This document shows positions 19,332 through 22,424 of a DNA stretch of 64,000 bases, one piece after another. This stretch comes from an uncultured Opitutia bacterium (GTDB lineage Bacteria; Verrucomicrobiota; Verrucomicrobiia; Opitutales; UBA953), in the NCBI GenBank assembly GCA_903889525.1, contig CAISXT010000030.1, forward strand, positions 1 through 64,000, written 5' to 3'. How positions within the stretch are numbered: position 1 is the first letter of the stretch; every line of letters begins with the position of its first letter. Under the pieces are notes generated by a model. That model did not search any database and was not told the DNA's origin. It worked only from the letters and a program-made list of their open reading frames with translations. The position numbers were made by a program, and so were the translations under genes.

Positions 19332-20420
19332 ATGGCTTCTTATTCAGACCTAGCCAATCGGCCCGTCCTCACTCAGCCCGTCTATGAAGCTGGGCGGCCC
19401 ATCGAAGTCGTCGCCCGGGAATTTGGCCTCAATCCCGCGGACGTGATCAAGCTCGCCTCGAATGAGAACCCACTCGGACCTTCTCCGCTCGGCCTAGCCG
19501 CCGCCCGCAAGGCGCTCGACACTTGCCATCTCTATCCCGATGGCGGCTGCACCTTTCTTCGTGAGAAATTGGCACGCAAATGGTCGATGGAGCCGGGCAA
19601 CTTCGTCATCGGTAATGGCTCCAATGAGGTTATGATCCTGCTGGCGCAGGCTTTCCTTCGGCCCGGAGATGAAGTCGTCTTCGGGGCCCAAGCCTTCATC
19701 GTCTACAAGCTCGCCACGATGCTCTTCGGGGCAAAACCGGTCGAGGTACCCATGCCTGGCTTCCGCCATGATCTCGCCGCTCTCCGCGCCGCCGTTACCC
19801 CCAAGACGCGCATCCTCTTCCTCGCTAGCCCCAATAATCCAACCGGCGGAACGGATGATCCCGCCGATATTCTAGCTTTGGCCGCCTCACTGCCGGAGGA
19901 TGTTATCTTCTGCTTAGACGAAGCCTACACGGAATACCTCGAAGCATCGGCGGATTTACGCCCCTTGATGATGTCGGGCCGGAAAGTCGTGCTCTCTCGT
20001 ACATTTTCAAAGGCCTACGGATTGGCCGGATTACGAGTCGGCTACCTCATGGGCTCAACGGAAGTCTGCAGCCTGTTGAATCGTGTACGTCAGCCCTTTA
20101 ACGTCAATCTACCTGCCCTGGCCGCCGCGGAGGCGGCGCTGGATGATGAGGAATTCGTTCACCGCACCCGCCAGGTCAACGCCGAGGGTATCGTCCAGCT
20201 TTCCGCCGGACTTAAAAAACTCGGGTTCGCGTTTATCGAGGGCAAAGCCAACTTTTTGGCCACGCAAGTTCCTCAGGCCGAAGAGGCCTTCTTGAAGCTC
20301 CAGAAAGCTGGCGTGATTGTCCGCCCCCTCCGTGGGTATGGCATGACTGGCTGGTTACGACTTACCGTAGGTACGGCTGAGCAGAACGCTCGACTGTTAA
20401 CCGAACTTGCCAAACTCTGA
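19332..20420 (+). CDS. hisC: Histidinol-phosphate aminotransferase
   Basis: 362 residues from the ATG at 19332. The frame is open to a TTG at 19317, but MASYSDLANRPV is the more likely N-terminus. It is a fold-type I PLP enzyme: KLASNENPLGPSP at the N-terminus, SPNNPTGG, the LDEAYTEY segment, and the cofactor lysine in SRTFSKAYGLAGLRVGYLMGS. These are HisC hallmarks; the family also handles aromatic amino acids. hisF lies elsewhere in the window (26347-27105), so histidine genes are scattered. The Minf_1886 gene starts four bases after its stop. Confidence 0.93.
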   Translation: MASYSDLANRPVLTQPVYEAGRPIEVVAREFGLNPADVIKLASNENPLGPSPLGLAAARKALDTCHLYPDGGCTFLREKLARKWSMEPGNFVIGNGSNEVMILLAQAFLRPGDEVVFGAQAFIVYKLATMLFGAKPVEVPMPGFRHDLAALRAAVTPKTRILFLASPNNPTGGTDDPADILALAASLPEDVIFCLDEAYTEYLEASADLRPLMMSGRKVVLSRTFSKAYGLAGLRVGYLMGSTEVCSLLNRVRQPFNVNLPALAAAEAALDDEEFVHRTRQVNAEGIVQLSAGLKKLGFAFIEGKANFLATQVPQAEEAFLKLQKAGVIVRPLRGYGMTGWLRLTVGTAEQNARLLTELAKL

Positions 20421-20424
20421 GCTC

Positions 20425-20817
20425 ATGGACTTCGACGACGCCGTTCGGATAATCCGACTGAAGGATGCGCGCTATCAGCCGCAGGCCTATGAAGTTGTCC
20501 GCCAGGGCCTAGATCACGCCCAGAAAATCATCCACGGAGAGCCTAAGAAAGGGCGCAGCACGACCAATCGACATGTCACGGGCCCCCAACTCCTCGAGGG
20601 ATTTCGGCTCCATGTTCTCGAAACCTACGGCCCGATGGCCTATCCACTGCTTCATAACTGGGGGCTCCGCAAATCGGCGGACGTCGGGAACATCGTTTTT
20701 AACATCATCGACACTGGGCTTTTCGGCCGTTCCGAAGACGACAACCTCGAGGCCTTCAGTAATGTTTATGACTTCAAGGAGGCTTTCCATAAGCCCTTCG
20801 AGCCAGGCCAGAACTGA
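20425..20817 (+). CDS. Minf_1886 family conserved protein
   Basis: 130 residues from the ATG at 20425, four bases past the hisC stop. I recognise the Minf_1886 family, restricted largely to Planctomycetes-Verrucomicrobia relatives: DFDDAVRII near the start, RYQPQAYEVVRQGLDHAQ, RHVTGPQLLEGFRLHVLETYGPMA, and a DVGNIVFNIIDTGLFGRSEDD core, ending DFKEAFHKPF. No catalytic motif is evident and the function is unknown. It is a useful lineage marker. Its stop is two bases from that of the converging HAD-DciA gene. Confidence 0.88.
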   Translation: MDFDDAVRIIRLKDARYQPQAYEVVRQGLDHAQKIIHGEPKKGRSTTNRHVTGPQLLEGFRLHVLETYGPMAYPLLHNWGLRKSADVGNIVFNIIDTGLFGRSEDDNLEAFSNVYDFKEAFHKPFEPGQN

Positions 20818-20819
20818 GT

Positions 20820-21875
20820 TCAAGCGTTCACAAAACTAATCGAGCGAACATCTTGGCAGCCCCGCAAGGTGCGGATCTTTGCCAGCATCGCTCTTTCGTG
20901 GAAGCGAACTTCGGATTTAATGACCGAGTTCTCGCACTGAACTACCAATTTTCCACCTTCGAGCACGCGCAAGGGTGCGCAGCGCTTGGCCAGCTTAACC
21001 GGGAGTAATTCGTGCCAATTAGCCACAATGGCATCTTCCGGGACAGGCTTATCTAGGCGTAGTTTCTTGAAGGCATCCAAAACCGCCTCATCCATCGATT
21101 TCATGGGGCGATCTGAGGAACGTCCGCGATCTTCCGGCAGCCCGCGCAAGTTTGCCAAGAGATTTTGCACGGTGCGAGAAAACTTACCCTTTAAACGACC
21201 CTCCGTGATTAAAGCCCGAATGATGTAAGGCGTCTCGATAATCTTCTCGGCGCGCATACATTTCTCTGGTGCGTGTGCGCCCCCCACGACGACACCCGTT
21301 GCGCCCGCATCTCGCGCACCGACACCATCGTCGGTCGGACTATCGCCGAAGTGCACCAAGGTGGAAGTTGTTCCGCCCAGTGCTTTCGCAGCATGAGCAA
21401 AGGCCTTAGCATCGGGCTTGGCGAAGCCGGTTTCTGCGGAAAGAAATATGCCATCAAGACGACGGGCAAGACCATGCCCCTCAAGCACGGCGTTCATGCG
21501 CGAATCCGCATTCGAAAGCACGGCAACCTTAACCCCGAGGAAACGTATGGCGGAGATCGCATTCAAAGCTCCGGGTGCCAGCCGCCATGACTCTGGTTTC
21601 GCAAAGGCATCCCAACATTCCTTGTAGACGGGCCCGATTTTAGCCAAAGGAAGTGCTGGCCCAAAACAACGCTCAACCACCTCGCGCCAGAAGACTTCAG
21701 GCTTAGCGCCCTTCGGCCCACCCTTGAAAGCCAGAGGGAAAGCAGCATCGAGCACCGATGCCTCGACCACGAGGCCATGCTTCAAGGCACAGGCAGCATA
21801 GATTGTGCCGACACTGGGGGTCGGGGAGAGCAGGGTGCCTGCGAGGTCAAAGGTGACGGCATGTATTTTGGCCAT
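20820..21875 (-). CDS. HAD-like hydrolase domain fused to DciA/DUF721 domain
   Basis: A 351-residue single frame with two parts. Residues 1-225 are HAD-like: motif I FDLAGTLLSP (nucleophile Asp10, but Ala12 where Asp is usual), motif II VLSNAD, the lysine of FAKPDAKAF and motif IV HFGDSPTDDGVGARDAG. Residues about 255-351 match the DUF721/DciA fold: a helix-rich linker with LRGLPEDRGR, then ANWHELLPVKLAKRCAPLRV, GGKLVVQCENSVIKSEVRFHERAML and a VRSISFV end. DciA is the ancestral loader of the replicative helicase DnaB. Loss of the motif-I second Asp suggests weak or no phosphatase activity. The coupling of the two domains is unusual. Confidence 0.8.
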   Translation of the reverse strand: MAKIHAVTFDLAGTLLSPTPSVGTIYAACALKHGLVVEASVLDAAFPLAFKGGPKGAKPEVFWREVVERCFGPALPLAKIGPVYKECWDAFAKPESWRLAPGALNAISAIRFLGVKVAVLSNADSRMNAVLEGHGLARRLDGIFLSAETGFAKPDAKAFAHAAKALGGTTSTLVHFGDSPTDDGVGARDAGATGVVVGGAHAPEKCMRAEKIIETPYIIRALITEGRLKGKFSRTVQNLLANLRGLPEDRGRSSDRPMKSMDEAVLDAFKKLRLDKPVPEDAIVANWHELLPVKLAKRCAPLRVLEGGKLVVQCENSVIKSEVRFHERAMLAKIRTLRGCQDVRSISFVNA

Positions 21876-21956: not shown

Positions 21957-22424
21957 ATGCACCACCTGCTTAAGGCCTCCGCTCTTCTCCTAGCTGTTTT
22001 GGCCGCTTTTCTCTCTGGTTGTGCCACCGGCGGGACCACCCACGTCTCCCTTTCGACTATTTCTCGGGTTTATGTCGCCGATACGGTCGGCGCCAGCACC
22101 TCCGAGACCGCCAGCGCCTCCAATGCGGTGCATGACGCAGTAGTCAGTGAACTTCGCCGCCTGGGCTATGTGGTGGTCACCAACGCCTCCGAAGCGGACG
22201 CCGTGCTTAAAAGCAGCTGGCGGATCAAAAAGAGTGAAGACAATCGCAACGATCTCCAGGTCGCTTCTCTTTCCGTGAGCCTCTTTGATAAGAAAAACCA
22301 TCGCTTGTTCGACACCGACTCCGGCCCCTCCGTCCCGGCCAACTTTTGGAATGAGTCCCGCGCCAGCACGGAAGTCGCGAACATGCTGAATCGTCTCGGC
22401 AGGGCGACGACTTCGCAAAAGTAA
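21957..22424 (+). CDS. Small lipoprotein of unknown function
   Basis: A 155-residue protein with a lipoprotein signal peptide: positively charged start, hydrophobic stretch ALLLAVLAAF and lipobox LSGC (acylated Cys23 by count). The mature part contains a beta-alpha pattern, a VYVADTVG strand then VVSELRRLGYVVV, resembling the GNA1162/DUF4136-like periplasmic lipoprotein fold. I cannot assign a family with confidence. It is expressed divergently from the HAD-DciA gene and ends three bases from panE. Confidence 0.8.
   Translation: MHHLLKASALLLAVLAAFLSGCATGGTTHVSLSTISRVYVADTVGASTSETASASNAVHDAVVSELRRLGYVVVTNASEADAVLKSSWRIKKSEDNRNDLQVASLSVSLFDKKNHRLFDTDSGPSVPANFWNESRASTEVANMLNRLGRATTSQK

Follow-up and report, generated by a model that had tools for sequence, protein, structure and literature searches.

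We found that one gene in the window, a 64,000-nucleotide stretch of a contig from an uncultured Opitutales bacterium, encodes the only DciA of its lineage and carries a REG-2/HDHD3-like HAD domain tethered at the N-terminus of that DciA (Table 1). DciA is the ancestral bacterial loader of DnaB; it is used by most bacteria and has no ATPase domain. To our knowledge no regulator of DciA has been reported. The best explanation of the whole, which we consider probable, is that the HAD serves as an accessory module dedicated to the loader and tunes it via a small substrate.

Table 1. Positions of the fused gene, its domains and its conserved motifs in the window.
Feature	Position	Strand	Basis
Fused HAD-DciA gene, 351 aa	20820..21875	-	uninterrupted ORF with ATG start; Pfam; fusion in 51 loci
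REG-2/HDHD3-like HAD domain with cap, residues 1-226	21198..21875	-	PF00702, 3k1z, Foldseek, pLDDT
Motif I, residues 10-14 DLAGT, nucleophile D10, acid/base position A12	21834..21848	-	alignment with relatives
Motif II, Ser121	21513..21515	-	alignment with relatives
Motif III, Lys153, invariant	21417..21419	-	alignments
Motif IV, residues 177-183 GDSPTDD	21327..21347	-	alignments
Low-confidence link and DciA N-terminal extension, residues 227-260	21096..21197	-	pLDDT about 50
R..NLLANLRGLPED helix motif, residues 234-249	21129..21176	-	invariant alignment columns; starts of stand-alone genes
DciA DUF721 KH-like domain, residues 261-351, Trp287 invariant	20823..21095	-	PF05258; 7ykm and 8a3v by Foldseek

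The earlier note on this DNA had read a HAD domain and a DciA/DUF721 domain in a single frame, and both assignments were borne out by Pfam matches above cut-off and by fold. PF00702 (HAD) matched residues 4-191 (E 6.2e-20, above the curated cut-off), and PF05258 (DciA/DUF721) matched residues 268-348 with 51.4 bits against a cut-off of 24 (E 1.3e-13), an E value that improved to 1.5e-14 when the C-terminal part was searched alone. The best-scoring HAD subfamily was TIGR02252 (REG-2-like), but its 128.7 bits lay below the cut-off of 155.2, which the fused homologue G031 passed with 158.6 bits. Human HDHD3 (3k1z) was the closest solved structure by sequence (E 1.2e-19) and also ranked first when the whole model was searched with Foldseek (E 8e-15). 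When the DciA part was modelled alone, Foldseek matched it to Deinococcus radiodurans DciA (7ykm, E 1.7e-4, TM 0.75 by target length) and to Vibrio cholerae DnaB-DciA (8a3v, E 7e-4), with the top three matches all being 7ykm or 8a3v, in contrast to a PDB sequence search with the same part, which returned no match. The HAD and DciA identities are therefore backed by both sequence and fold. AlphaFold, run with 46 sequences, gave a pLDDT mostly above 90 for the HAD, about 50 for the link (residues 227-260) and about 90 for DciA, and a pTM of 0.63 for the fusion, that is, two confident domains with a disordered link between them. With this flexible link and pTM, the predicted model offers no evidence of a fixed interface between HAD and DciA.

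The DciA part shares the PF05258 domain and KH-like fold with DciA of V. cholerae (8a3v), D. radiodurans (7ykm), Caulobacter crescentus and Mycobacterium tuberculosis (Rv0004). It further resembles known loaders in its N-terminal extension before DUF721, a Trp that is presumably their conserved one, its exclusivity with DnaC/DnaI and its single copy, and differs from them in the full HAD domain in front. Residues 234-249 matched the N-terminus of stand-alone DciA when gene starts were compared, and the R..NLLANLRGLPED helix that they span (R234 to D249) was conserved across fused and stand-alone Opitutales DciA. Trp287 was invariant in all aligned homologues and is presumably the equivalent of W113, the conserved DUF721 Trp of M. 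tuberculosis (PMC5720831). DciA binds ssDNA through the DUF721 domain and the N-terminal extension, and in Caulobacter the extension is needed for DnaB loading (PMC12547741). V. cholerae DciA touches DnaB via a C-terminal hairpin (PMC9865707) that is absent from the protein described here. Since this protein stops directly behind its KH-like domain, we infer that it must contact DnaB elsewhere.

The fusion is a property of the whole family. DciA was matched in 67 of 79 same-family genomes, almost always within a frame of at least 300 aa. At 51 loci, drawn from many independent assemblies, the HAD and DciA queries hit one and the same frame. All five sampled genera carried the fusion, and no sampled family member has reverted to separate genes; the shorter same-family frames that we examined (L006, L069) run off contig ends. 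Throughout the genus, nadB, panE, hisC, rmlD and a small ORF hold their positions around the fusion. Outside the family, no HAD-DciA fusion was found in the order and phylum samples, where DciA is stand-alone and its frames are mostly about 120-300 aa long. The longer DciA frames that we examined there (L098, L118 and L119), candidates for independent fusions, proved to be chance open frames in GC-rich DNA, and a search of viral contigs found no relative. The fusion-bearing records are uncultivated, mostly Opitutae/Opitutales, and come from lakes and reservoirs according to their titles. Two MAG records labelled Akkermansia muciniphila (L120) and Polynucleobacter meluiroseus (L154) hold contigs clearly of this Opitutales family, and look misnamed or like mixed bins. 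We found no published description of a HAD-DciA fusion; the main DciA diversity survey (Blaine 2022) lies outside the literature covered, so a prior mention is possible.

Two neighbouring frames without a Pfam match were also observed. The small, conserved ORF at 20407-20817 (+), which we take to resemble the Minf_1886 family, overlaps the end of hisC and is convergent with the fusion gene. The divergent ORF at 21957-22424 (+), predicted to be lipoprotein-like, evolves much faster than its neighbours (27-92% identity) and is sometimes undetected. Elsewhere in the phylum, DciA was undetected in all sampled f43/g109 (7 of 7) and f30/g93 (4 of 4) genomes, and the f30/g93 genomes have a diverged REG-2-like HAD (L228-L230).

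In its own genome (2.24 Mb, 90% complete, 192 contigs) the fusion was the single DciA match, alongside one DnaB. The earlier note had left room for a separate dciA or dnaC, and neither was found: both PF01695 matches, which might have hidden a DnaC/DnaI, were DnaA and ClpX. A second dciA may have been missed, since the genome is 90% complete. Same-family relatives with a match had a single DciA copy each; the exceptions were one genome in which the fusion occurs twice and another with an extra fragment. In the former, G021 (L009; L123 and L148 of the BS8 record), the two fused HAD-DciA genes of one assembly were 80% and 64% identical to the gene in the window and probably represent two strains in one bin.

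We traced the origin of the fusion in sister families of the order. In six of them (f5, f8, f15, f18, f20, f21), dciA is stand-alone, and the gene immediately upstream of it, in the same orientation, codes for an orthologous HAD. The HAD stop and dciA start overlap by 4 nt (ATGA/GTGA) in L058, L097 and L113, which belong to three families; such an overlap is the classic arrangement for coupled translation. We then took strong REG-2-like HAD matches in relatives regardless of position. Five of the six stand-alone strong HADs in the order had dciA as their neighbour; three further strong HADs in f21 were not beside dciA, so that in all four of the order's strong HADs are located elsewhere in their genomes. 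Of those examined outside the order, none lay within 1.5 kb of dciA. In several Opitutales families no HAD neighbours the DciA gene. Because of these families and the four HADs elsewhere, DciA does not in general depend on the HAD for its function. In the HAD tree the fused HADs formed one clade (support 99/96) inside a larger supported group with the dciA-adjacent HADs of f20, while a clade of fused together with adjacent HADs was neither supported nor rejected (p-AU 0.058). The tree of the short DciA domain was poorly resolved and did not resolve the fused group. The simplest history is one fusion of a pre-existing adjacent HAD-dciA pair, with the single origin resting on the HAD tree.

The active site qualifies what the HAD might do. 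Motif I reads FDLAGTL, so that the nucleophile D10 is kept and, as the earlier note had seen, position 12 of the acid/base residue is Ala. In the comparison, every one of the 25 fused proteins whose HAD is intact retained the nucleophile Asp, as did every unfused relative. With few exceptions, these 25 also retained the Ser/Thr of motif II, the Lys of motif III and the Asps of motif IV. An Asp at the acid/base position was found in none of the fused proteins or unfused relatives compared; Ala, Thr, Val, Phe, Gly or Tyr-like variants stood there, and Lys in HDHD3 (PDB alignment). Since the unfused relatives also lack this Asp, its loss predates the fusion, and Ala12 was rejected as the mark of a HAD repurposed by fusion. 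DLAGT departs from the classical phosphatase motif I, DxDx(T/V), and judged from these residues the classical two-Asp mechanism is unlikely. A dead sensor does not follow from the Ala, because L-2-haloacid dehalogenase and L-azetidine-2-carboxylate hydrolase (3smv), which share the HAD fold and Asp nucleophile, lack the acid/base Asp and yet are active; they differ from our HAD in subfamily and substrates and have no DciA. HDHD3 (3k1z) and TIGR02252 are the best match in sequence and fold and share the cap, the nucleophile Asp and a non-Asp acid/base position, but no replication protein is joined to HDHD3.

Selection has acted on both parts. The omega of the HAD was 0.03-0.24 in the 40 of 85 pairs listed, that is, purifying selection; in most pairs the DciA part was under the stronger constraint. 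No internal start codon near the joint was conserved, and an internal translation start yielding free DciA was rejected. Within genus g22 the fused HADs form a natural series of decay. Three of them, L078, L080 and L081 (in G064, G061 and G058), have no nucleophile and have lost most or all of the cap, and their N-termini are collinear HAD remnants (E 3e-17 to 1e-10) still fused to DciA. Since these three stay fused, the link to DciA can persist after catalysis is lost, and no other indirect evidence favours a loader-linked role as strongly.

By analogy with other DciA proteins, helicase loading, with binding of both ssDNA and DnaB, would fall to the KH-like domain together with the NLLANLRGLPED helix, and the conserved helix from R234 to D249 is the likely contact site for DnaB or ssDNA. 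The HAD sits directly before this helix, joined by the flexible link, and would bind, and perhaps turn over, a small substrate. Its substrate might thereby tune the availability, stability or activity of the loader. This regulatory step, taken alone, is the least certain part of the proposal, and we put it forward tentatively. The long association of HAD and dciA, first as neighbours and then as a fusion, suggests a loader-linked role over general metabolism.

The HAD could instead be an independent small-molecule hydrolase that was co-transcribed and translationally coupled with dciA, then fused neutrally and fixed. The mostly conserved catalytic residues fit an ordinary enzyme as well, and such a hydrolase is favoured by the low omega, the disordered link, the REG-2-like HADs away from dciA in other Verrucomicrobiota, and the fact that most fused proteins keep the nucleophile and the residues of motifs II-IV. 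We nevertheless regard it as rather unlikely, since HAD and dciA are adjacent in six families of the order, the fusion was never split again in sampled family members, and in three members the HAD core has stayed fused although nucleophile and cap are gone. A more specific reading is that the HAD acts as a metabolite- or nucleotide-responsive switch, in which ligand occupancy or slow turnover controls the delivery of DnaB by DciA. Metabolite gating of replication, which the earlier note had suggested, is plausible, and if true the switch would provide DciA, which lacks an ATPase, with its own chemical input and couple the initiation of replication to nutrient state in these lake bacteria; in this specific form we think it unlikely. 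If the HAD core were simply a ligand-less structural module for folding, solubility, dimerisation or positioning of the strongly basic DciA part (pI 10.1), then the degenerate g22 HADs that remain fused without cap and nucleophile would be readily accounted for, but the active-site residues, for which a pure scaffold would have no need, are conserved in the other genera over large divergence, and we consider this improbable. An assembly or sequencing artefact, conceivable for a window from a genome in 192 fragments, can be set aside, because dozens of independent assemblies show the identical in-frame fusion with the same genes around it.

We therefore return to the HAD as a probable module dedicated to the loader. 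The permanent attachment of a conserved, enzyme-like domain, which in sister families has its forerunner in a translationally coupled gene, is a Rosetta-stone clue that a HAD protein works with DciA. The HAD is thus a defined candidate partner of DciA to examine, also in those Opitutales in which the two genes are still separate, and the fusion raises the possibility that a metabolite or an enzyme activity is tied to DNA replication.
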